From positions 1-36,536 of the forward strand of contig JALWYX010000071.1 in NCBI GenBank assembly GCA_027078415.1: a stretch of DNA of 36,536 nucleotides, written 5' to 3'. Origin of the DNA: Thermoanaerobaculia bacterium. Its GTDB lineage: Bacteria; Acidobacteriota; Thermoanaerobaculia; JALWYX01. The notes below the pieces were generated by a model. It had not been told where the DNA came from and did no database searches. It saw nothing but the letters and a program-made list of their open reading frames with translations. Position 1 is the stretch's first letter; each line of letters opens with the position of its first letter. This document shows, one piece after another, positions 12,407 through 25,072 of this stretch. The translations under genes and the position numbers were made by a program.

Positions 12407-12691
12407 ATGGGATTTACTATCAAAGATATAGCATATATAGCTAAACTTGCAAGGTTGGAGTTGTCTGAAGATGAGATAGAGCAGTTTAGCTCTGAGTTAA
12501 GTAAGGTGGTTGATTATTTTAACCAGCTGGCTTTATTTGAAGAAGAAGAAAAGGAGATAAAGACGTTACCCTCTGTTTTGGAAAGAGATGATAACATTAG
12601 TGTTTCTTTATCACAGGAGATTGTGCTTTCTCTTTTCCCATCTAGAATAGATAATTTTTTAGTTGTTCCTAAGGTCAGGAAGGAGGAGTGA
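12407..12691 (+). CDS. gatC: Asp/Glu-tRNA amidotransferase subunit C
   Basis: The small subunit of the GatCAB amidotransferase, which converts misacylated Glu-tRNA(Gln) and/or Asp-tRNA(Asn) to the amidated forms; GatC wraps around and stabilises GatA and GatB. The N-terminal IKDIAYIAKLARLELSEDE stretch is diagnostic, and the 94-residue length is usual. A good ribosome site (AGGAGG, within 12395-12403) precedes the ATG. It overlaps no coding part of gatA if gatA starts at 12696, as argued there. gatB is not in the window. Confidence 0.92.
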   Translation: MGFTIKDIAYIAKLARLELSEDEIEQFSSELSKVVDYFNQLALFEEEEKEIKTLPSVLERDDNISVSLSQEIVLSLFPSRIDNFLVVPKVRKEE

Positions 12692-12695
12692 AGTT

Positions 12696-14102
12696 GTGGT
12701 TAGTATAGCTGATACAGTGGCTGCTATAAAGAGGGGGGAGCTAAAGGCTACAGATCTAATAAGTGATTGTTTGCAGAGAATAAAGAAGAGATCATCTATA
12801 AATGCTTTTGTTGAAGTTTTTGCTGATGAAGCTTTAAAGTCGGCTGAAAAAATAGATGAGAAGGTATCATCTGGTGAGAAGGTAGGATCTTTAGCTGGTA
12901 TTCCTATTGCTATAAAAGATAATATAGCTTATAAGGATCATTTTCTTTCCTGTGCTTCTAAAATTCTTGAGGGCTATAGATCTCCCTATTCTGCTAATGT
13001 TGTAGAAAAAATCGTTGCTGAAGATGGGATTATTATAGGAAGAGCTAATATGGATGAGTTTGCGATGGGGTCGAGTGGCGAGAATTCTTGCTACGGTCCT
13101 ACTTTAAATCCTTTAGATTCCAGCTTGGTACCGGGAGGGTCTAGTTCCGGTTCAGCAGCTGCTGTGGCTGCAGGTATGGTTCCTGTGGCTTTAGGAAGTG
13201 ATACTGGAGGATCTATAAGACAGCCTGCTGCTTGTTGCGGTGTGGTTGGGTTAAAACCTACATACGGACGTGTTTCTAGATGGGGTTTGGTAGCTTTTGC
13301 TTCTTCTCTTGATCAGATCGGTCCTATTGCACGGAATGTAGAAGATGTAAGCTATCTTTTGGAAATTATCTCAGGTTACGATAAGAGAGACGCTACTTCT
13401 GCTGATATGGCTCCCTTTAAATATAAAGATGTAGATGTTAGAACCTTAAGGGTGGGTTACCTCAAAGAAGCAGATGAAATGTTGGATGGTCGGCTGCGTT
13501 CTTTATGGTTTGATTCAATAGATTATATAGCTAATATAGTGAATGCTGTAGAGAAAGTTTCTGTTCCAACTATTAAAGCATCTATAGCTATATACTATGT
13601 GGTAGCAAATGCGGAAGCTAGCGCAAATTTGGCCCGTTTTGATGGAATTCGTTATGGTTATAGAGCTACCAGTGTATCCTCTCTAGAGGATGTATACTTT
13701 AGAAGTAGAGGGGAAGGTTTTGGGAAAGAGGTTAAAAGGAGAATTATTCTAGGAACTTTTGCTTTGGCTTCCGGCTATTATGACCAATATTACGGTAGGG
13801 CTATAAGAGTGAGAGAAAAGTTGAAGTCTGAATTTATGGATCTCTTTTCTAAAGTTGATCTTCTGATTGTTCCAACCCTTGCGAGTGCTCCTCACAAATT
13901 GGGTGAAAAGTTGGATATATTGGATAGATATAGGGCAGATATATTTACAACTCCAGCTAATTTGGTAGGGGTGCCAGCTATTTCTGTTCCTACTCCTCTA
14001 CGTATAGATGAAAAAATACCTTGGTCGCTTCAAATAATTGGTAAGTGGTGGGATGAAAATGGTGTAATTAATTTGGCTTCTAGGATTTATGGTAAATCCT
14101 AA
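12696..14102 (+). CDS. gatA: Asp/Glu-tRNA amidotransferase subunit A (amidase)
   Basis: The glutaminase subunit of GatCAB, an amidase-signature enzyme releasing ammonia for transfer to misacylated tRNA. I place the start at the GTG at 12696 because AGGAGGAG (12681-12688) lies 7 bases before it and the protein then begins as other GatA proteins do; an upstream in-frame TTG at 12663 would lie inside gatC. Counting from this start, the Ser-cisSer-Lys triad is Lys74 (IAIKDNIA), cis-Ser149 (GGSSSGS) and Ser173 (DTGGSIRQPA). At 468 residues it is slightly short but complete. The stop overlaps the next gene by 14 bases. Confidence 0.93.
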   Translation: MVSIADTVAAIKRGELKATDLISDCLQRIKKRSSINAFVEVFADEALKSAEKIDEKVSSGEKVGSLAGIPIAIKDNIAYKDHFLSCASKILEGYRSPYSANVVEKIVAEDGIIIGRANMDEFAMGSSGENSCYGPTLNPLDSSLVPGGSSSGSAAAVAAGMVPVALGSDTGGSIRQPAACCGVVGLKPTYGRVSRWGLVAFASSLDQIGPIARNVEDVSYLLEIISGYDKRDATSADMAPFKYKDVDVRTLRVGYLKEADEMLDGRLRSLWFDSIDYIANIVNAVEKVSVPTIKASIAIYYVVANAEASANLARFDGIRYGYRATSVSSLEDVYFRSRGEGFGKEVKRRIILGTFALASGYYDQYYGRAIRVREKLKSEFMDLFSKVDLLIVPTLASAPHKLGEKLDILDRYRADIFTTPANLVGVPAISVPTPLRIDEKIPWSLQIIGKWWDENGVINLASRIYGKS

Positions 14103-15783
14103 ATATAAAACCTCTATTGCTGTTCTGTCGTTTTGCCTTATCCCGTGTGTGTTGCACGCGTTAAAGTATAAGAGATTTGTGAAAGTGGAAGATAACTTTT
14201 GGGGAGGTATAGATAGAGATGGCAAGATTGTAGCATTGTTTGCACCTATGAAAGGAGAAGGATGGAAACATTTTGTTAATAGAATTTCTAAAGGTAAGTG
14301 TAGTTGGAAGCGAGTAGCTAAAGGTAGAAAGCTTTTGTTAGGTAAACGGTACAAGTTTGATTTTTTCTGTTTATCTCCTGTCAATAAGATGTTACTTTTG
14401 GATTCCATATTTCCTCAAGATAGGTTGGAAAGCGATGGTTGGGTTCATACTGTGAATTTTAAGAAAGGATTTGTTTACGATATAGGTGACCTTTCGTTGT
14501 GGTTAACGGGTGATTTTAGCAATACTCGAGTTATAGTAGAGTTTAATAAAAAGGGGGATGAGTCGCTTATTGAAGGTGAAAAAATAGTTGTTCCTGCAGA
14601 AATTTTGTTACAGGATCTTAGGATTTTCCTTCCTAGAAAAACTGATGTTTTGTTGGAGTATCCGCCAGATAAAGACTATGCTATATACCGATTGAGGCCT
14701 GGAGAAGCACTTTATTCTGCTGTAGTGGTTCGTTTTACTGGAAGAGTATTTGCGGAGGATGTAAACAAGCTCGCTTATACTTTTGCGAGGTTATCTGGTA
14801 TAACGGATGTAACGGATATTCCCAAGTGGTATCCTATAAGGATACCTTTTGAGTATTTATTACCTCAATATCTGCCTGAGGATCATCCTTCACGGGTGAT
14901 GTATGAGCGGCAGAAAGCGCGTGTTGTAAAGAAAAAAAACCGTTTTAGTGTATCCTATGCTGTGGTTGTAATAGATCCTGGTCATGGAGGATTGGATATA
15001 GGAGCTAATAGGGGTAAGATATGGGAATCTGTGTACGTTTATGATATAGCGGTAAGGTTAAAAAACATTTTAGAAAGGAATAAACTAATCAAAGTGTTTA
15101 TTACAACTAACGATCCAAAATATAAGTTGGTTAATAAAAATTGGCTAGATCTTTCAAAAAAGCATTTTGTTAAAACCTCTCCTCCATATTTTATAAAAGA
15201 CTCAAAGATAGGTGTGCATCTAAGGTGGATGTTGGCTAATTATATTTCGAGGAAGGAGGAAAAAAACGGAATAGACAGAAGTCATCATCTATTTCTTTCT
15301 ATACACGCTGATTCTCTACATCCGAGTCTTAGAGGGGCTATGATATATGTACCATCAGCTAGATTGTCTAAAGGTAGAGTTAGGCTAACATCTAAAGTTT
15401 ATAAAAGGAGAAAAGAGTACTCGCGCGTTTCTTTTACAAATTTTTCACTTAGGGAACGTATAAAAAGCCAGAACTTGTCGTATACTTTTGGAAAAATTTT
15501 ATTAAACAATTTCAGAAAAAGGTCACTTCCTATTCATAGTTACAATCCTATACGTACAAAAATTATTAGAGGAAGAAGCGTTTATGTTCCAGCTATTTTG
15601 CGGTTTAATATAATTCCTACTAAAGTGCTTTTAGAAATTGTAAATTTGTCAAATAGTAAGGATCGCAAGCTTATAACTTCTTATCTCTTTAGGCAGAGAG
15701 TAGCAGATGCTATAGCAGATTCTGTAGAAGAGTTCTTATTGTTTTCCTCGCCTAAAATCGCAGAAGTTTACTATGATAGATAA
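14089..15783 (+). CDS. Periplasmic N-acetylmuramoyl-L-alanine amidase (Amidase_3)
   Basis: A zinc amidase that cuts the stem peptide from muramic acid, normally for cell separation. A signal peptide (residues 1-24, ending Leu-His-Ala) sends it across the inner membrane. Residues about 25-285 are a poorly conserved N-terminal region; one part (about 198-260, YRLRPGEALYSAV) loosely resembles a LysM unit. The catalytic domain starts near 290: zinc ligands His299 (DPGHGG), Glu313 and His406 (SIHADS), with catalytic Glu516 (LLEIVNLSN). The segment between Glu313 and His406 is long, and so is the region after it, suggesting lineage-specific insertions. It overlaps gatA by 14 bases, a translational coupling with no obvious functional reason. 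Confidence 0.86.
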   Translation: MVNPKYKTSIAVLSFCLIPCVLHALKYKRFVKVEDNFWGGIDRDGKIVALFAPMKGEGWKHFVNRISKGKCSWKRVAKGRKLLLGKRYKFDFFCLSPVNKMLLLDSIFPQDRLESDGWVHTVNFKKGFVYDIGDLSLWLTGDFSNTRVIVEFNKKGDESLIEGEKIVVPAEILLQDLRIFLPRKTDVLLEYPPDKDYAIYRLRPGEALYSAVVVRFTGRVFAEDVNKLAYTFARLSGITDVTDIPKWYPIRIPFEYLLPQYLPEDHPSRVMYERQKARVVKKKNRFSVSYAVVVIDPGHGGLDIGANRGKIWESVYVYDIAVRLKNILERNKLIKVFITTNDPKYKLVNKNWLDLSKKHFVKTSPPYFIKDSKIGVHLRWMLANYISRKEEKNGIDRSHHLFLSIHADSLHPSLRGAMIYVPSARLSKGRVRLTSKVYKRRKEYSRVSFTNFSLRERIKSQNLSYTFGKILLNNFRKRSLPIHSYNPIRTKIIRGRSVYVPAILRFNIIPTKVLLEIVNLSNSKDRKLITSYLFRQRVADAIADSVEEFLLFSSPKIAEVYYDR

Positions 15784-15797
15784 CTAGTAGTTACCTC

Positions 15798-17840
15798 TTA
15801 TTCGTTGTATTTTGCTATTCGTGTTATTTTCCAAACTTTATCTTTCCAAAGGAGTGTCTCTCCAACTTTTTTACCTAAGATGGCTTTTGCTATATCGCTT
15901 TTGTAAGATATGATTCCTTTCTCAGGATCACTTTCCCAGGGCCCTAGTATCGTTATAGTGATTTCCTCTTTAGGATTGTCTGTACTGGATAGGTATATCT
16001 TTGTACCTACACTTGCTTGTGAAGTATTAATTTTATCTATTTCTATTTCTACAACTTCCGATAACTGGGAATTTAGATGGTCAGCAAGTGAAGTTAGGTA
16101 CTCGTATCTTTGACGAGCACTCTTGTATTCAAAGTTTTCACGCAGATCTCCAAGTGCTCTTGCTTCCTCTATAGCTTTTCTAGTTTTAGGGATTTCGTGT
16201 TGTAATATTTTCTGTAACTCCTCCTTTTTAGCATTTATGGATTCTCCAGTGGCGTAGAACTTATCTGTCTCCTCTTTTATTATCTCAGGGTAACGTAATC
16301 TTATAGATTCCAGTAAAGGCTTTTTCAGGTAGTTCTCTATAAAAGGAGAGTTCTTTATTATCTGGAATAGCTCTGCTGCATCTTTTTCATCCACTGCATT
16401 TATAAGTAGTGCTACACTTCCTCCGGGAGAAAGAAGAGAGGTCAATTTTTTACGGTAAAACACAAATGCTGGATCTCCACAGGCTTTGATTGTTTTCACT
16501 ATGATGTCACTTGCATTCGATTTTATATACTCCTCTTGTGTGAGGTTTTCTATAACCCACGTGAAAAGCTGGGGGTATTTAGAGTACCTAGCAATGATAT
16601 ACTCAAGAAATTGTAGTTTTTTTGTTTTATTCTGTGATACGTAGGGATAAAGAGTCTCTAACGTTTTTTGAGTACTTTCTTTAAGAATAGTGGTAAAGAA
16701 GATTTCTACACTATCGTCGAAATTCTTTCTTATTAGTTCTATTGCTTGCTTCTGAAGATTTTTAGAAGCTATTTTGCCAAACAGTTCTGTAAAGTTTGTA
16801 TATAGAAACTGTAGATCTTTCTCTTCTATCTTCTTTTCAAGCGAGTAAAGTAGTAGTAGTGTGTTGATCTTTTCTATAGGGCTACTAGATTTCAGGGCAC
16901 CCTTTAATATAGGTATAACCTTACTTATAAACTCCTTGTCGCCTTTATAGATTTTAATAGCATCCTCTTTTTCTTTTGTGGATAGAGAAGAGAATTTTTC
17001 TACAAGTTCTTGGACTTTGTCTTTGGTCTCGTCTTGCCATTTATATTTACGGGGTGAACCTGGAATTTTAATTAGTTGAGGAGACTTTTGCATATTTTTA
17101 ACTACTTCGTTTATTTCTTGGGGTGTGAGAACGTCGGATAATACAGATTTTATCTCTTGCATAGTCAAGGGATGATCAAAGCTCTTGAATAATTTTTTTA
17201 ACAGGGTAGTTTTGTCCTTCGCTGCCAGCTCTTTGATTAGTGTTGGGTTTTTCAGTTTTAAGTACAGAATATGTGTGGGTTGGAGTATTTCTATCTTGTT
17301 TACGAGAGATATTCCCAGATTTAAAGTTCCCTTTTTACCGAAATCTATTTTGAAAGTACCCAGTTTTAGATTTACTTCCTCTATTTTCCCTTCTCCTTTA
17401 TCTTTGAAAAATATAGGGGTGCCTTTTTTTATCTTTATTACCGTTTCTATATTGTTTACCTTTTCCCAGAAGATCTCTCCCTTATTTCGGTAATTGGGCA
17501 AATTGAACAATTTTATTAGGGTATTAACTTTTTCTTCGTCACGGTAGATTCTTTTTAAAATCTTAATAGTAATAGGGTATATATCTTTTTCTTTCAAGAA
17601 TAGTTTCCCTACTTTTTTTACCAGTATAAGACGCAAGTCGTCTTTTTCTAACTCTTTGAGGGTTTCGTCTATTAATTGGAGTAATGTTTTTAGAGTAGAT
17701 GGGGAGAGTTTAGAAGAGTTTTGTTGTATTAGAGTAATTACCTCCTCGAATGACTCGGGCAAGTTGTCTATTTTTTCTAAGATTTTTTCTTCTATTGTTA
17801 AAGAGTCTGTTGTTTTACTGTTTGTTTTAGTTTTGGTCAT
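15798..17840 (-). CDS. greA: Oversized transcription elongation factor GreA
   Basis: A 680-residue protein whose last 150 or so residues are a complete GreA: coiled coil with the tip motif GDLREN at 564-569 (Asp565 and Glu568 are the Mg-coordinating residues needed for RNA cleavage in RNA polymerase) and the FKBP-like domain after about 605. GreA rescues backtracked polymerase; ordinary GreA is only about 158 residues. The N-terminal 520 residues are mostly helical, with a small beta domain at about 136-187 (KKGTPIFFKDKGEGKI, then FGKKGTLNLG). Comparable long GreA proteins are known from spirochaetes and some former Deltaproteobacteria. GGAG lies about 6 bases before the ATG. The gene converges on the amidase gene with 14 bases between stops. 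Confidence 0.88.
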   Translation of the reverse strand: MTKTKTNSKTTDSLTIEEKILEKIDNLPESFEEVITLIQQNSSKLSPSTLKTLLQLIDETLKELEKDDLRLILVKKVGKLFLKEKDIYPITIKILKRIYRDEEKVNTLIKLFNLPNYRNKGEIFWEKVNNIETVIKIKKGTPIFFKDKGEGKIEEVNLKLGTFKIDFGKKGTLNLGISLVNKIEILQPTHILYLKLKNPTLIKELAAKDKTTLLKKLFKSFDHPLTMQEIKSVLSDVLTPQEINEVVKNMQKSPQLIKIPGSPRKYKWQDETKDKVQELVEKFSSLSTKEKEDAIKIYKGDKEFISKVIPILKGALKSSSPIEKINTLLLLYSLEKKIEEKDLQFLYTNFTELFGKIASKNLQKQAIELIRKNFDDSVEIFFTTILKESTQKTLETLYPYVSQNKTKKLQFLEYIIARYSKYPQLFTWVIENLTQEEYIKSNASDIIVKTIKACGDPAFVFYRKKLTSLLSPGGSVALLINAVDEKDAAELFQIIKNSPFIENYLKKPLLESIRLRYPEIIKEETDKFYATGESINAKKEELQKILQHEIPKTRKAIEEARALGDLRENFEYKSARQRYEYLTSLADHLNSQLSEVVEIEIDKINTSQASVGTKIYLSSTDNPKEEITITILGPWESDPEKGIISYKSDIAKAILGKKVGETLLWKDKVWKITRIAKYNE

Positions 17841-17931: not shown

Positions 17932-18594
17932 ATGGAGACTATCGACTTTACTAGAGCTAGAAAAATATTGCGGACTCCTTCTAGTAGTTTTCATGATATA
18001 GAGATGATTTTGTCTTGCGAAGAACTTATGAAGTTTTACGAAATCAAACGGTTGTTAGTATTGCATCCTAAGGTTCCACGATACGTTGCTGTTGATTTAG
18101 TAGCTTCTCTTTTTTGGAGAGACCTTATGGAAGTAGGGGTCTCTACACGTGTTCATCCGATTGTAAGAAGAGCTGCGGATAATAGACTTATAGAGAAGCT
18201 TCGTGTGCTAACGGTAGGTGAGAAGGTAGCTTTAGCTAGGAGGGCGTCGCATAGGGTCCTTAGTCATTTGCGTTACGATCCTACAGTTAGAGTTATATCG
18301 GCTATGTTGGATAATCCCAGGGCAACGGAAGGTTTGGTGGTTTCTTTAGCAGGGTACGGTAAGGCCAATCCTAAAGTTTTAGAGGTTGTAGCTAAACATG
18401 AAAAATGGGGTAGACTTTACAACGTAAAGGTAGCTCTTTGCAGGAATCCTCAAACACCTTTGTCTGTTTCTGTTACTATTGTAGATGAGTTACTTTATAG
18501 TGATATCGAGGCTATTTTTAAAGATGATACTCTTCCTTACATTTTGAGAAGGAAATGTCAGTTGCTTTTATCTGGTCAGGATACTCTATTGTAA
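17932..18594 (+). CDS. Helical-repeat protein of unknown function (paralogue of the protein at 19401)
   Basis: A 220-residue protein I cannot name. It is built of short helical units recalling HEAT or leucine-rich-variant repeats, with recurring Asn-Pro/Asp-Pro helix caps (LHPKVPR, YDPTVR, DNPRAT, RNPQTP). No signal peptide or membrane segment is visible, so it is probably cytoplasmic. Residues 93-214 align along their whole length with the C-terminal 120 residues of the protein at 19401-20489: LTVGEKVALARRAS matches LPVPKRVKLARRAS, and RNPQTP matches NNPRTP. Similar uncharacterised proteins occur, to my recollection, in acidobacterial and deltaproteobacterial genomes. It is the first gene of the cluster with the RodZ-like protein, and probably serves as a binding scaffold (inference). 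Confidence 0.65.
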   Translation: METIDFTRARKILRTPSSSFHDIEMILSCEELMKFYEIKRLLVLHPKVPRYVAVDLVASLFWRDLMEVGVSTRVHPIVRRAADNRLIEKLRVLTVGEKVALARRASHRVLSHLRYDPTVRVISAMLDNPRATEGLVVSLAGYGKANPKVLEVVAKHEKWGRLYNVKVALCRNPQTPLSVSVTIVDELLYSDIEAIFKDDTLPYILRRKCQLLLSGQDTLL

Positions 18595-18622
18595 AATTTA
18601 TTAAAATAATTACACCGGATTT

Positions 18623-19399
18623 ATGAGTGAAGTAAACGGTAGTGATGATAACAGAAGTTTTGGAGAATGGTTACGTAGAGAGCGTGAAAGGCGAGGTATA
18701 ACTCTTGAAGAGATAGCTGAGGCAACTAAAATAGGGAAGAGATATTTGGAAGCTTTTGAAAGAGAGAGAGTGGATGTTATTCCAAGAGCTCCTATATTTG
18801 CTAGAGGTTTTCTAAGGCAGTACGCGGAGTATGTAGGCTTGGATCCCGAGGAAGTCTTAAATAGATTTGATAATGCAATATCTTTCCCTTCATCTTATGA
18901 GGTAAGAAAAGAGGAAAAATGGAATTCCGTACCTTTAAGGTTTTGGCTTGTTGTAGGATTTGTTTTTTTTATCATCGTACTTTTTATAATAGTTAGTAGT
19001 TTAAGTGCAGGAAATGTGGGGAGTGACTCTTATTTTTCCTATTTGAAAAATTTCTACATATTTACTGGTGAGAATGATCGTTTATTTCTAGGAATTTCTG
19101 AGGAATTTTTTAAGAACGATGGTGTAGTTGTTACTGTGGATGCTTTATATCCTACCGAGATTATAGCTTTCATCGACGGTAAATTTTTCTATAGTTACCC
19201 CGTTTTAGGGGATTCGATAAAACTTGTAGCCAGAGAGTCGTTGGAGTTGCAAATTCGTGATCCATCAGTAGCTAGATTGCTTGTGAATGGTAGAGTATTC
19301 GAGCTTGTGCGAGTTGTTGAGAATATACCTTTTAAGATTATTTGTAAAAAGGAGGGAGATTTGAGAATTATACATATCAAGGGAGGATATTTGAGATAG
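18623..19399 (+). CDS. rodZ: RodZ-like membrane protein with N-terminal helix-turn-helix
   Basis: Residues about 11-82 are the HTH_25-type domain typical of RodZ (FGEWLRRERERRGITLEEIAEAT split over residues 13-35; then YLEAFE, ARGFLRQYAEYVGLD). A single membrane segment lies at about 105-128, followed by a periplasmic part of some 130 residues with beta-rich character, like the DUF4115 domain of RodZ. In rod-shaped bacteria RodZ links the MreB cytoskeleton to the cell-wall synthesis complex. The cytoplasmic linker between HTH and membrane is very short (about 20 residues), shorter than in E. coli RodZ. mreB is not in the window. The start lacks a strong ribosome site. A membrane regulator with the same layout is the alternative. 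Confidence 0.78.
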   Translation: MSEVNGSDDNRSFGEWLRRERERRGITLEEIAEATKIGKRYLEAFERERVDVIPRAPIFARGFLRQYAEYVGLDPEEVLNRFDNAISFPSSYEVRKEEKWNSVPLRFWLVVGFVFFIIVLFIIVSSLSAGNVGSDSYFSYLKNFYIFTGENDRLFLGISEEFFKNDGVVVTVDALYPTEIIAFIDGKFFYSYPVLGDSIKLVARESLELQIRDPSVARLLVNGRVFELVRVVENIPFKIICKKEGDLRIIHIKGGYLR

Positions 19400-19400
19400 A

Positions 19401-20489
19401 ATGGAGTTTTCCGATATAGCCAAACGTATACTGGAAGGAGACGAGTCTATGCAGCTTCTAGCTGCGCAAGGTTTGGTTCCCCTACCAGTAGACGAACTTA
19501 TAGAGATACAAGTTTTATTAACAAAAAGTGATAATCTGCAGATAGCTACTTTATCTAAATCTAGCCTTGAATCTCTTGATCCTAATATATTTGCCGATGC
19601 TGTTGGTAGCTTATCAAACAGAGCGCTTGAGTATTTTGTTGAGAACGTAAATAATGAGAAGCTACTTTTGCCGATAGTAAGAGTAAGAAATGTTCCCACC
19701 TCACTCCTTAAAAAGTTGGCTAAGAAGGGAAATGAATCTATTCAAGAAGCTATTTTGCTACGTCAAGATAAAATAGTTGAAGATCCTTCCATTCTTGATT
19801 CCTTAGAAAAAAATCCTTCCCTTACCGAGGCTTCTAAGATTGCTATAGATGATTTGAGATTTTATCTGCTCAGACACGTGAAAGAACCTACCAAAGAACA
19901 GGTGGAAGAAGAGCGTGAGACCAGTGAGCAGGCAGTTTTGGAGTTGGAGTCTTCTCGTGAAGCTGTAGTTGAAGAGGTAATAGAGGAAGGGGAAGTTGTA
20001 GCAGAGGAAGAAGAGGTTGATGAGATAATAGAGAGTGCTAAGCAATTTCCTCCTGGAGGAGAAAAGGATGAATTAACAGGACTGACTGAAGCTCAGATTA
20101 GACAGTTACCTGTTCCTAAGAGAGTTAAGTTAGCTAGAAGAGCTTCTTCTAGGAGTATGCGTGCTATGCTTATAAAAGATCCTAATCCTCAAGTGGCTTT
20201 GGCAGTTTTGCAAGGTGGTGGTATGAGTGATCAAGAGATAGAGATGGTAGCTAAAAATAGAACGGTTTCCGAGGACGTATTGGAGGCTATAGCGCGTAAT
20301 AAGAGATGGGTAGCTAAGTATCCTATAGTTATCTCGCTTGTTAATAACCCTCGTACTCCTCCGGGAGTTGCCGTAAGATTGTTGAGTCGTTTATCGGTTA
20401 GGGATTTAAAGATGGTTATGATCAACAAGAACATTTCTGAAACTGTGAGGGCTACAGCAAAACGTATCTTTAGAGTAAAATCTAAATAA
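19401..20489 (+). CDS. Helical-repeat protein with acidic linker (paralogue of the protein at 17932)
   Basis: A 362-residue protein of unknown function in three parts. Residues about 1-160 are helical-repeat-like. Residues about 161-212 are an acidic linker rich in Glu and Val (VEEERE, EEGEVVAEEEEV), likely disordered. Residues 236-358 repeat the C-terminal domain of the gene at 17932 (KLARRASSR, ARNKRW, VNNPRTP). No signal peptide or membrane segment is visible. The ATG sits 1 base after the rodZ-like stop, so coupling with that gene is likely. The pair of related repeat proteins around RodZ suggests cytoplasmic adaptors for its N-terminal domain, but this is inference from position. Confidence 0.65.
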   Translation: MEFSDIAKRILEGDESMQLLAAQGLVPLPVDELIEIQVLLTKSDNLQIATLSKSSLESLDPNIFADAVGSLSNRALEYFVENVNNEKLLLPIVRVRNVPTSLLKKLAKKGNESIQEAILLRQDKIVEDPSILDSLEKNPSLTEASKIAIDDLRFYLLRHVKEPTKEQVEEERETSEQAVLELESSREAVVEEVIEEGEVVAEEEEVDEIIESAKQFPPGGEKDELTGLTEAQIRQLPVPKRVKLARRASSRSMRAMLIKDPNPQVALAVLQGGGMSDQEIEMVAKNRTVSEDVLEAIARNKRWVAKYPIVISLVNNPRTPPGVAVRLLSRLSVRDLKMVMINKNISETVRATAKRIFRVKSK

Positions 20490-20502
20490 GGGGTGGCTTT
20501 CA

Positions 20503-21159
20503 ATGATAGAAGGGAGAAAAGATTACTATCAAATTTTAGGGGTACCGGAGACTGCTAGTCGCAGTGAGATACGTGAAAGGTTTCTTGAGCTTGCTCGTGA
20601 GCTACATCCTGATAAGTTTGATCAAGATCAGAAGCGTGAAGCAGAGGAAAGGTTTCAAGCTATAACTGAAGCGTTTAACATTTTGTACAATCCTCATACA
20701 AGGAGTAAGTATGACTTGGAGCGTAAAGGTGCCCAGACAGAGTCGAAGAGGGTTGATCATAGAAAGGAAGTGTTTAAAGCGTACCTTGTTAGGGGTAAAG
20801 AAGCACTTAAGAATAATGATTTCCGTGAAGCAGCCAAAAACTTCTTTGAAGCTACGAAGGTTAATCCAGATGATTCCAAGGCATTTTACTATTTAGCTTT
20901 TGCGTGTTTTAAAGATCCAAATATGTTAGATAGGGCTGAGAACGCTATTATGAAAGCCATTAGATTATCTCCGACAGATGGTAAAATTTTGAAACTTGCG
21001 GGTAACATATATTACAAGAAAGGAGATGTTGAAAGCGCAAGACAATACTTTGAAAAAGCTTTAGATTGGTTAGGTGAAGATATAGAAATAGAGAAAAAGT
21101 TGCAAGCATTGCAGAGTAAGAAGAAGAAAGGGCTTTTCAATATTTTTAGAAAGAGCTAG
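20503..21159 (+). CDS. J-domain protein with TPR repeats
   Basis: Residues about 6-70 are a J domain (KDYYQILGVPE, His-Pro-Asp in LHPDKF, then YNPHTRSKYD), the part that stimulates DnaK ATPase. Residues about 85-205 hold at least three TPR-like helical pairs (REAAKNFFEATKVNPDD, ENAIMKAIRLSPTD, ESARQYFEKALDW), which normally bind peptides. The zinc-finger and C-terminal substrate domains of true DnaJ are missing, so this is a specialised co-chaperone. The C terminus is a short basic stretch. It follows the second repeat protein by 13 bases with a GGGGTGG ribosome site, and the phosphatase gene follows after 4 bases. Confidence 0.86.
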   Translation: MIEGRKDYYQILGVPETASRSEIRERFLELARELHPDKFDQDQKREAEERFQAITEAFNILYNPHTRSKYDLERKGAQTESKRVDHRKEVFKAYLVRGKEALKNNDFREAAKNFFEATKVNPDDSKAFYYLAFACFKDPNMLDRAENAIMKAIRLSPTDGKILKLAGNIYYKKGDVESARQYFEKALDWLGEDIEIEKKLQALQSKKKKGLFNIFRKS

Positions 21160-21163
21160 AGTT

Positions 21164-21925
21164 ATGAGACTTAGAGCTGTAGGGATTTCTGATACTGGGA
21201 AGGTTCGTTCAAGTAATGAAGATTGTTTTGGGATAGATTTGGCTAATAATGTTGTAATAGTTGCAGATGGTATGGGTGGGCATAGCTACGGTGAGATAGC
21301 ATCTAGAATAGCAGTTAAAACTATCCAGGATTTTATAAGTAGAACCGCAGATCAAGATTCTACATGGCCTTTTGCTTATGATGCGAGGATACAACATCAT
21401 TCAAATAGATTACAAATGGCCATACGAATAGCTCAAGATAAAATACGTAAAGCTATCGAAAAGGAAGAACGACTGCGAGGTATGGGAACAACTGTTGTCA
21501 GTATGATGCTTAAAGGTAACGTGGCGGTTATAGCTCATGTAGGAGATAGTAGAGCTTATAGGTTTAGAGATGGTAAACTAGAACTTTTAACGAGTGATCA
21601 TACTTGGGTTAATGAACAGATAGCTCTAGGTAATTTGTCAGAGGAGCAGGCCAGAGAGCACCCTTTCCGTAATGTCGTAACTAAGGCGTTAGGAGGAGAA
21701 GGGTACGTTTCTGTAGATGTTAGAGAAGAGACTGTAGTACCGGGTGATCTCTTCCTCCTTTGTTCCGATGGCTTGACAGGTATGTTAGAAGATAAAGAGA
21801 TAGAAGATTATTTAGCTAAGGATGCTTCTTTAGAAGAGAAATGCAAGATGTTGGTAGACGCTGCTAATGAAAGAGGAGGAACAGATAACGTTACTGTAGT
21901 GTTAGCAGTAGTTGAGGAGGAGTAA
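21164..21925 (+). CDS. PP2C-family serine/threonine protein phosphatase
   Basis: A 253-residue soluble phosphatase of the Stp1/PrpC type, which removes phosphate from Ser/Thr residues set by Hanks-type kinases. Metal-binding motifs are visible in order: SSNEDCFG (Asp20), VADGMGGHSYGE (Asp35-Gly36), HVGDSRAYR, TSDHTW, CSDGLTG and GGTDNVT. All usual acidic residues appear present. No transmembrane or sensor domain is attached. It is the last gene of the RodZ/J-domain cluster (4-base spacing), and no partner kinase lies in the window. The gene converges on bioF, with 32 bases between stops. Confidence 0.92.
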   Translation: MRLRAVGISDTGKVRSSNEDCFGIDLANNVVIVADGMGGHSYGEIASRIAVKTIQDFISRTADQDSTWPFAYDARIQHHSNRLQMAIRIAQDKIRKAIEKEERLRGMGTTVVSMMLKGNVAVIAHVGDSRAYRFRDGKLELLTSDHTWVNEQIALGNLSEEQAREHPFRNVVTKALGGEGYVSVDVREETVVPGDLFLLCSDGLTGMLEDKEIEDYLAKDASLEEKCKMLVDAANERGGTDNVTVVLAVVEEE

Positions 21926-21957: not shown

Positions 21958-23136
21958 TTAAATTTTTAGTGTTGTTTCCTTAAGCGTATTAAGTAAAGAG
22001 AAAAAGTCAATTATATCTTCTCTTTTGTGCAATGCAGTTAGACTTATCCTCAGGCGAGCTTTGCCTTTTGGTACAGTTGGGTACCTGATAGGTGGAGCGA
22101 GATAGCCTTTTTCCTTGAGAACTCTAGATAGGAGGATTGTTTTCTTTTCTTCACCTATTATTATTGGAACTATTTGAGAATCTAAGTTTTTACCTGTGAA
22201 TTTGCTTGCAATATGTATATTCTCCCAAAGTGTTTTTCGACATTTATCGTTCTTTTCTAAATAATCTATAACATTTAGGGAATGTATTGTTACTGGTAAA
22301 GGTAATGAGGTGGAGAATATATAACTTCGTGCTTTGTTTGTTAAGTATTCTTTTATACTCTTAGAAGTAGCGGCAAATCCTCCTAAGCTGCCAAAGGCTT
22401 TACTAAGGGTGCCTACATTTATATCTACCTCTTCTTCAACCCCAAACATTTCAGCTACTCCGGCACCTCTTTCTCCGAAAATCAAAGTTGCGTGCGCTTC
22501 GTCTACAACTAACAGAAAGTTGTATGCTTTCTTTAGTGCTATTATGTCTCTCAATGGCGCTATATCACCATCCATGCTAAACAAAGTTTCTGTTATAACA
22601 ACTTTGTATTTTGAGGTATCTTTCTTTAGAAATTGTTCTAGATGGTTTACATCGTTATGACGATAAAATTTTACTTTTGCTCCTAACCTTTTAGAAATAC
22701 GTAACCCGTCGTATATCGAAGCGTGGTTGTATCTGTCTGAAAAAAAGGATACTTCTCTTCCTGCTAGTGAAGTTATAACACCTATATTAGCTAGATATCC
22801 TGATGAGAATAGAAGGGCCGTTTCCTTACTTTTAAGCTTGGCTAGCTTTTCCTCCAATTCCTCATGATATTTGGTATAACCTCCAAGCAAAGGAGATCCT
22901 CTTTCACCCATACCTATTTTTTTAACCTTTTCACAACTTAAAGAAACAATTTCAATATTTCTACTCATTCCTAGATAATCGTTAGAAGTGAAGGAGACAA
23001 ATTGATTGGTTCTTGATTTTGCTTTCATTCCTTCTATATACTCTAGGACCTCGCTTTTTCTTAGCAGGTTTTCATGAGCTAGTTTTTTTAGCTCGGAGTT
23101 TATTAATTTTTGCCATATTTTCATCGTAGTAGCCAC
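21958..23136 (-). CDS. bioF: 8-amino-7-oxononanoate synthase
   Basis: A pyridoxal-phosphate enzyme that joins pimeloyl-thioester and L-alanine, the first step of building the biotin rings. The aminotransferase class II fold is shown by FTSNDYLGMS, ERGSPLLGGYTKYHEELE, VVDEAHATLIFGERGAG and the cofactor lysine in GTLSKAFGSLGG. The 392-residue length is usual. The closely related enzyme Kbl (2-amino-3-ketobutyrate CoA ligase) is a possible confusion, but the position as last gene of a complete bioBADF run settles the call. It overlaps bioD by 16 bases. Confidence 0.93.
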   Translation of the reverse strand: MATTMKIWQKLINSELKKLAHENLLRKSEVLEYIEGMKAKSRTNQFVSFTSNDYLGMSRNIEIVSLSCEKVKKIGMGERGSPLLGGYTKYHEELEEKLAKLKSKETALLFSSGYLANIGVITSLAGREVSFFSDRYNHASIYDGLRISKRLGAKVKFYRHNDVNHLEQFLKKDTSKYKVVITETLFSMDGDIAPLRDIIALKKAYNFLLVVDEAHATLIFGERGAGVAEMFGVEEEVDINVGTLSKAFGSLGGFAATSKSIKEYLTNKARSYIFSTSLPLPVTIHSLNVIDYLEKNDKCRKTLWENIHIASKFTGKNLDSQIVPIIIGEEKKTILLSRVLKEKGYLAPPIRYPTVPKGKARLRISLTALHKREDIIDFFSLLNTLKETTLKI

Positions 23137-23750
23137 GAGATTATCTTGTCTTGGAATTCCTCGTTTGTATCTATTATTTTAGTGTTGGGTAACAAACGCT
23201 TGAGAGTATTTAAATTGTGTTCTTGTGCTAAGTCGTTTGGAGATAGTTGAGTATTGAGTAAAATAACAAATTGCAATCTCTGTTTTTTCATAAAGAAGTC
23301 TATAAGGGATACTACATTTAAAGATCCTAGTTTATTGGGCACTACTACTATAAATTTGGCGTTTAACGTTTTTCCAATATCTACTATGGTGTAATTCCAT
23401 CCTAGAGGAGATAATATACCTCCTGCTCCTTCTAGTACGTTTATTCCGTTTATTAAATATTTATTTATTTCTGATATTAGCTGATCTAGCGTTGGTAGGT
23501 GCTTTTTTTCTATTTCTGCAGCTACACATGGTGCTAGAGGTAAATTGTAATTCCATAGTGCTTTAGTTGGGAACGGTTGTTCTGCAGCTTTAGCTAGTAG
23601 GTAAGCGTCTTGGCCGTTGCCGCTTTCTAGTGGTTTAATGGCTCTAACGGGCATATTTTTATCTTTTATGTATCTGATTATTTTGCATCCTATATATGTT
23701 TTGCCAATCTCTGTATCGCTTCCTGTTACGATGACTGTTTTGATATCCAT
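23121..23750 (-). CDS. bioD: Dethiobiotin synthetase
   Basis: ATP-dependent carboxylation of 7,8-diaminopelargonate to dethiobiotin. Residues 9-18 carry the P-loop of the family (TGSDTEIGKT), and Glu-Gly-Ala-Gly-Gly (about residue 103, EGAGGILSPL) is the typical second motif, though shortened relative to the commoner EGAGGLLVPL. The protein is 209 residues, slightly short. The start lies 25 bases inside the bioA coding region and the end overlaps bioF by 16 bases. Confidence 0.9.
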   Translation of the reverse strand: MDIKTVIVTGSDTEIGKTYIGCKIIRYIKDKNMPVRAIKPLESGNGQDAYLLAKAAEQPFPTKALWNYNLPLAPCVAAEIEKKHLPTLDQLISEINKYLINGINVLEGAGGILSPLGWNYTIVDIGKTLNAKFIVVVPNKLGSLNVVSLIDFFMKKQRLQFVILLNTQLSPNDLAQEHNLNTLKRLLPNTKIIDTNEEFQDKIISWLLR

Positions 23751-25072
23751 ATATCTATTGCTTTTTCTAAAGCTTCTGTTACTTTTGCAAGTTGTTCATC
23801 CGTTATAATAAGAGGTGGCATTATTACAAGGGTGTCTCCTAGAGGACGTGTGAATACTCCGTATTTCAAGGCTAGATTAGATATTTTCATACCTACTCTT
23901 CTGTCGGGATCGAATGGTTTTAATCCGTTTTTGTAGTCTGCTAGTTCTATTCCTGCAGCTAGACCCCATTGTCTCACATCTTTGACGATCGCGATTTTTT
24001 CAAAATTTTTTAATAGCTTTGATAAGACTTTTTCTTTCTTTTTAACGGAATCTAGAAAGGCTTGTTGTGATACTATTTCAAGTACTTCTAAGGCTACAGC
24101 TGATCCCAGCGCGTTTCCTGTGAATGTATGTCCGTGGTAAAAAGTGCGTTCTTGAGATGGTTTGCCTAAAAATTTTTCGAAAACTTCGTTTGTAGTAAGG
24201 GTAGCTGCTAAAGGAAGGTATCCTCCTGAGAGCCCTTTTGCAAGACATATAAAGTCTGCGTACTTGTCTATATTTTCTCTTTGTGAAGCAAATAGGTATC
24301 CTCCTCTACCAATACCTGATGCTACTTCATCGTAAATGATGAGAATTTCTTCTTCTTTTGCTAACTCTACTATAGTTTTTAAAAAGTTTTTTGGGTATGT
24401 AACTATACCGGCAGCACCTTGAAATCCCGGTTCTATTATAAGAGCTGCTATCTCTTCTTTGTGATATTGGAGGATTTCCTTAAATTGCTCTATATGTATA
24501 GAGTAGTTGTCTTCTCTATATTGAGGTGTAGGTAGGTGTATAGCTTTAAATAACAGAGGTTTGAATCTCCTATGAAATGTATTAATACCTCCTACAGATA
24601 CGCTGCCTATTGTGTCTCCATGGTAAGCGTTGTTTAAGGATACAAAAAGATTTTTCTTCTTTCCTTTAATCTGCCAGTACTGAAAGGATATTTTGATTGC
24701 TATTTCAATTGCGGTTGAACCGTTGTCTGAAAAGAAGATTTTTCTTAGTTGTTTAGGAGCTAAATCGATCAATTTTTTTGCTAACTTTATGGGCGTAGTA
24801 TTGCTATTTCCTAATAAGGTGGAATGTGCTATTTTATCTATCTGTTCTTTTATCGCTTTATCCAGCCTTGGATGTCTATGTCCAAGTATTGCGCACCAAA
24901 TGGATGATACCGCGTCTATATATTTATTCCCATAGATATCGATTAGATAGATTCCTTCACCTCTGTCTATTATAAGAGGGGATTCTTTGTCGTATATAGA
25001 GTGTTGAGTAAAAGGGTGCCATATATATTCTCTATCCCACTGGATAAACTTGTTTAGTTCGGGGGATGTCAT
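23726..25072 (-). CDS. bioA: Adenosylmethionine-8-amino-7-oxononanoate aminotransferase
   Basis: A class III pyridoxal-phosphate aminotransferase converting 8-amino-7-oxononanoate to 7,8-diaminopelargonate, normally with S-adenosylmethionine as amino donor. Diagnostic parts are IWHPFTQHS near the N terminus, DAVSSIWCAILGHRHP, FSDNGSTAIEIA, NAYHGDTIGSVSVGG, IYDEVASGIGRGG and the cofactor lysine in CLAKGLSGGYLPLAAT, all typical of BioA rather than other class III enzymes. The length, 448 residues, is normal. It starts 4 bases inside bioB and ends 25 bases inside bioD. Confidence 0.94.
   Translation of the reverse strand: MTSPELNKFIQWDREYIWHPFTQHSIYDKESPLIIDRGEGIYLIDIYGNKYIDAVSSIWCAILGHRHPRLDKAIKEQIDKIAHSTLLGNSNTTPIKLAKKLIDLAPKQLRKIFFSDNGSTAIEIAIKISFQYWQIKGKKKNLFVSLNNAYHGDTIGSVSVGGINTFHRRFKPLLFKAIHLPTPQYREDNYSIHIEQFKEILQYHKEEIAALIIEPGFQGAAGIVTYPKNFLKTIVELAKEEEILIIYDEVASGIGRGGYLFASQRENIDKYADFICLAKGLSGGYLPLAATLTTNEVFEKFLGKPSQERTFYHGHTFTGNALGSAVALEVLEIVSQQAFLDSVKKKEKVLSKLLKNFEKIAIVKDVRQWGLAAGIELADYKNGLKPFDPDRRVGMKISNLALKYGVFTRPLGDTLVIMPPLIITDEQLAKVTEALEKAIDIWISKQSS

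Follow-up and report, generated by a model that had tools for sequence, protein, structure and literature searches.

Among bacterial systems that combine an Stp1/IreP/PrpC-type PP2C phosphatase with Hanks-type kinases, that of M. tuberculosis is reported to set one phosphatase against many kinases, 11 in number (PMC6213207). The locus reported here is similar in that respect, but its PP2C sits with RodZ, two predicted solenoid proteins (P1 and P3) and a protein with a J domain and TPRs (J/TPR), and there is no kinase among the five genes. A second comparison is offered by the Streptomyces spore-wall complex (MreB/C/D, PBP2 and RodZ, under the control of the kinase PkaI), where Ser/Thr phosphorylation likewise falls on elongasome-type proteins. 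The kinase phosphorylates MreC and PBP2 (PMC4416010), which sets a precedent for regulating such proteins through Ser/Thr phosphorylation; unlike our cluster, the complex is not known to include solenoid proteins or a dedicated phosphatase. Known RodZ proteins share with the copy in our cluster the HTH domain, a hydrophobic segment, the MreB-contact aromatics and, when class orthologues are considered, the RodZ_C domain, whereas the five-gene setting and the short, divergent C-terminus set this copy apart. For P1 and P3 the nearest described proteins are the LRV, HEAT and armadillo scaffolds, the likeness being a predicted alpha-solenoid together with weak LRV_2 and HEAT_2 matches in P3 orthologues. 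Their likeness to the PP2A A subunit is one of functional analogy alone. The parts of the cluster are of known kinds, except for the P1/P3 family, and in our literature searches no paper describing the five-gene cluster was found.

Layout of the cluster and its RodZ

The window, that is the whole stretch of 36,536 nucleotides that was analysed, comes from a Thermoanaerobaculia genome of 1.96 Mb (80 contigs, 97% complete). Five ORFs lie on the same (forward) strand and, as the original prediction had it, are separated by 28, 1, 13 and 4 bases. They encode P1 (17932-18594, 220 aa), RodZ (18623-19399, 258 aa), P3 (19401-20489, 362 aa), the J/TPR protein (20503-21159, 218 aa) and the PP2C Ser/Thr phosphatase (21164-21925, 253 aa). 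Promoter and terminator scans at the cluster gave no excess over chance; as a result, co-transcription of the five genes rests on their spacing. The RNA-element search returned nothing but one distant tRNA. It may be noted that a defence island was also considered and rejected, the PADLOC matches being generic (capH HTH and the PP2C-fold PDC-M21C) and the collections of phages and plasmids containing nothing that matches P3.

Three genes outside the module serve as syntenic markers, namely an amidase (12663-14102, forward strand), an AmiC-type N-acetylmuramoyl-L-alanine amidase (14089-15783, forward strand) and a GreA-domain protein (15798-17840, reverse strand) that diverges from P1 across a 91-base gap. 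The last, of 680 aa, has its GreA domain at the C-terminus, preceded by a long N-terminal extension; NCBIfam names comparable long GreA fusions (PRK14720, PRK06330). In several class genomes the gene is found next to the cluster, and in a genus that we call g8 (see below) it is found next to RodZ. On the other side, candidate bioF, bioD and bioA biotin genes, read from the sequence by eye, converge on the cluster (21958-25072, reverse strand).

The RodZ-like identity given to the second protein was confirmed. It has a cytoplasmic HTH_25 domain (PF13413, E 6e-23, over the cut-off), one hydrophobic segment and a short C-terminal part, and it is the sole HTH_25 protein of the source genome. Among solved structures it matches T. 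maritima RodZ determined with MreB (2wus_R, E 1e-4) and Chlamydia CT009 (4gqm_A, E 5e-7). Residues F59 and F63 are phenylalanine in all 16 orthologues; we take them to be the counterparts of E. coli F60 and Y64, placing them in the E. coli numbering through a conserved motif. In E. coli RodZ these two positions are reported to be critical for MreB binding (PMC4047632). Of 16 class orthologues, 15 give a scoring match to the RodZ_C domain (PF13464); the C-terminus of the window copy is too divergent to score, yet aligns with them. Judged by sequence, the RodZ of the cluster is genuine. The source genome also has mreB, mreC, PBP2-like and RodA/FtsW-like genes in one run on another contig, in which a small gene at the place of mreD has no Pfam match.

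The P1 and P3 repeat proteins

The original prediction held that the two proteins flanking RodZ share a domain of about 120 residues end to end. The domain is indeed common to both, with 119 residues (P1 89-206, P3 232-350) at 29% identity by BLASTP (E 9e-13) and a profile-profile match between their orthologues of 99.8% probability over 134 columns, but it does not run end to end, since it makes up the C-terminal 60% of P1 and only the C-terminal third of P3. Within P1, the N-terminal and C-terminal parts match each other with a shift of register (98.5%, profile-profile), which is the signature of a repeat. The corresponding comparison for P3 detected no homology between its N-terminal 165 residues, a predicted solenoid, and the shared domain (1.8%). 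Both AlphaFold2 models are essentially all-helical. That of P1 has a pLDDT of 96 and a pTM of 0.86; that of P3 (pLDDT 90.5, pTM 0.48) consists of two blocks and, between them at about 188-200, a linker modelled with low confidence, the P1-like domain lying at 228-362.

Neither window protein has a significant Pfam match, and none of 20 P1 orthologues has one. Among 20 P3 orthologues the matches are all weak (LRV_2, PF25591, in 4, the best at 5e-6; HEAT_2, PF13646, in 3). A sequence search of the PDB with the P1 and P3 profiles gave nothing significant, and Foldseek against the PDB gave generic armadillo/HEAT matches alone, with TM at or below 0.34; PP2A chains appeared at TM of about 0.2, which does not support homology to the PP2A A subunit. 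P1 and P3 are best described, on their predicted structures, as an undescribed LRV/HEAT-like alpha-solenoid family outside any named family.

Conservation across the class and the phylum

To follow the cluster among relatives we used 41 class loci, i.e. 40 from Thermoanaerobaculia and the window itself. The order P1-RodZ-P3-J/TPR-PP2C is complete in 37 of them, which argues that the arrangement is not due to chance. Two of the four exceptions end at a contig edge and two have no J/TPR match, one of these also lacking P1 (a P1-like match is on another contig) and the other also lacking PP2C. Gene order and content are retained among orthologues at 23-43% identity in many families. Relatives thus keep the cluster, a point on which the original prediction had been made to depend, and complete copies occur in other parts of the phylum as well. 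P3 homologues are found in Thermoanaerobaculia and other Acidobacteriota, with more distant matches in Nitrospirota, and the P3 profile has a match in 199 of 297 genomes of the phylum sample; in 154 genomes the match is strong, with E at or below 1e-60. It is unlikely that the five are a conserved operon of convenience, in which growth-linked genes share one promoter but form no joint complex; the variation of neighbours outside the class and the occurrence of P3 alone in several lineages agree with such an operon, but retention of order and content at that level of divergence over so many families does not.

Outside the class, 58 loci were picked by P3, so that the survey covers P3-bearing loci and P1 without P3 is beyond its scope. 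RodZ adjoins P3 in 43 of these, the complete set of five occurs in 17, RodZ and P3 occur without the other members in 10, and P3 is alone in 14; P1 is found in 20, always together with RodZ. In the RodZ-P3-only and P3-alone lineages, P3 has to function with no phosphatase gene next to it. The main rival of the reading that we favour below is that P3 (and P1) are primarily RodZ accessories of the elongasome, the last two genes being co-transcribed with them but serving general proteostasis (J/TPR) and kinome antagonism (PP2C). We consider it possible though rather unlikely. The frequent adjacency of RodZ to P3, in 10 cases without J/TPR or PP2C, is what one would expect of such accessories, but the 14 loci with P3 and no nearby RodZ are not.

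Some variants of the locus deserve mention. In two cases (L129, L226) the P3 homologue is part of an ORF of 640-654 aa that stands alone with no RodZ nearby. P1 lies about 4 kb away from RodZ in L040 (10479-14174), with further P1-like fragments beyond. In L134, L136 and L145 a run of small genes comes after P3, and in the first of these it includes a candidate sigma and anti-sigma factor, read from the sequence by eye. The neighbours of Nitrospirota proteins with the shared domain are unrelated, being pilMNO or an S4/FtsJ methyltransferase gene. In L117, L120 and L126 the protein with the P1/P3 domain lies upstream of pilM-pilN-pilO, an assignment with Pfam support for L120 and made by gene lengths for the others.

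The phosphatase, the kinome and genus g8

The last two genes were assigned correctly from the outset. The J/TPR protein combines a J domain (PF00226, E 9e-20) with TPRs, and its HPD motif (H35 P36 D37) is intact and kept in 16 orthologues. In most orthologues the C-terminus is a short tail of glycine, hydrophobic and basic residues (e.g. GLFNIFRKS or GFFGRLRRKG), which may be a motif for binding or for the membrane; the window protein likewise has a basic-hydrophobic C-terminal tail. The phosphatase scores 251.4 bits against the NCBIfam Stp1/IreP equivalog HMM (NF033484, cut-off 230), and its PP2C metal-binding motifs (D35/G36, D128, D202/G203 and D241/N242) are invariant in 15 orthologues. 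It is the sole PP2C_2 detected in the source genome, in which 16 Pkinase matches over the cut-off (14 strong and 2 weak) indicate Hanks-type kinases. With one PP2C_2 for 14-16 kinases, the role of the phosphatase probably extends beyond RodZ. That its substrates are probably many also favours the view that PP2C acts as a general kinome antagonist beside RodZ accessories. Many sampled Acidobacteriota genomes have tens of Hanks-type kinases, and here a single PP2C_2 faces the kinome. The locus gives concrete candidates (P1, P3 and the J/TPR protein) for how one PP2C facing many kinases may gain specificity, along with a candidate target system, RodZ/MreB.

A natural contrast is supplied by g8, a genus of the same class and the same family as a cluster-bearing genome (G028); the RodZ-P3-only lineages supply another. 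P3 is absent in all 11 sampled g8 genomes, and in all 11 the best PP2C is distant (1e-17 to 1e-28) or there is none, while class genomes that have the cluster mostly give 1e-96 to 1e-128. RodZ is kept in 5 of 5 genomes examined for it, and no J/TPR orthologue was found in the 5 examined. In the two g8 loci that were read, GreA still adjoins RodZ and nothing matches P1, P3, J/TPR or PP2C; the GreA-RodZ gap is 117 and 170 bases, compared with 782 in the window, in which P1 occupies the interval. Both amidase genes lie beyond GreA, inverted relative to the window. Kinase matches number 2-5 in all g8 genomes against 12-91 in seven cluster-bearing relatives. At the level of gene content, the g8 pattern is a joint absence of P1, P3, J/TPR and the cluster-type PP2C with RodZ kept, a term that implies no particular number of losses. 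A twelfth P3-lacking genome, from another family (G006), is also without RodZ and PP2C and for this reason looks like an assembly gap.

The joint absence with RodZ kept suggests that the module has a tie to the kinome in addition to its tie to RodZ. It also speaks against P1 and P3 as pure RodZ accessories, which should have stayed with RodZ, and against an operon of convenience, as it spares a gene in the middle of the locus. It could be read instead as an ordinary loss of signalling genes along with the kinome, RodZ being a bystander outside the module; RodZ alone of the five is kept and kinases are scarce in g8, both as such a loss would have it, but a bystander would hardly be the usual nearest neighbour of P3 in other lineages, and we regard this reading as very improbable.

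The reading that we prefer, tentatively and with confidence a little short of even, is that the cluster encodes a module for dephosphorylation that either attaches to the RodZ/MreB elongasome or acts on it. P3 and P1 would be adaptor scaffolds between the cytoplasmic domain of RodZ, the phosphatase and its substrates, by analogy with the HEAT-repeat subunits of PP2A, and the J/TPR protein may recruit DnaK to assemble or remodel the scaffold-phosphatase complex. The output would be the phosphorylation state of elongasome proteins, perhaps also of other kinase substrates, and the module would in this way couple wall growth to Ser/Thr signalling. A more specific proposal, which we hold as doubtful, is a RodZ-anchored phosphatase holoenzyme, in which the single Stp1-type PP2C is made specific by the P1/P3 scaffolds and a J/TPR assembly factor and links the MreB elongasome with a large Ser/Thr kinome; if true, bacteria would have a counterpart of the scaffolded eukaryotic phosphatases. 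The original prediction had proposed a scaffold on RodZ with chaperone and dephosphorylation control, and it is partly supported. The genuine RodZ, the conserved cluster and the elongasome genes of the genome uphold it, but the probable wider role of the sole PP2C_2 and the tie to the kinome seen in g8 redirect it towards Ser/Thr signalling.

We also compared P3 with kinome size across the phylum, first-look counts of kinase candidates being used as the proxy. The median count is 22 in genomes with a strong P3 match, 15 with a weaker match and 7 without P3. Within families of mixed status, the median is lower for the genomes without P3 in 11 cases out of 12 (sign test p 0.006, uncorrected for phylogeny or genome size). 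If families are left out in which the genome without P3 is incomplete or probably has a gap in its assembly, the result is 7 of 7 (p 0.016, likewise uncorrected), but this subset was chosen post hoc and the 11 of 12 is the figure to rely on. Counterexamples exist both ways, as P3 is missing from 13 genomes with at least 30 kinase candidates and present in six with at most 5. The link to the kinome is therefore a tendency, and a simple rule by which P3 needs kinases was rejected. In f38, genomes with 4-5 kinase candidates retain strong P3 matches, an observation that fits P3 as a RodZ accessory.
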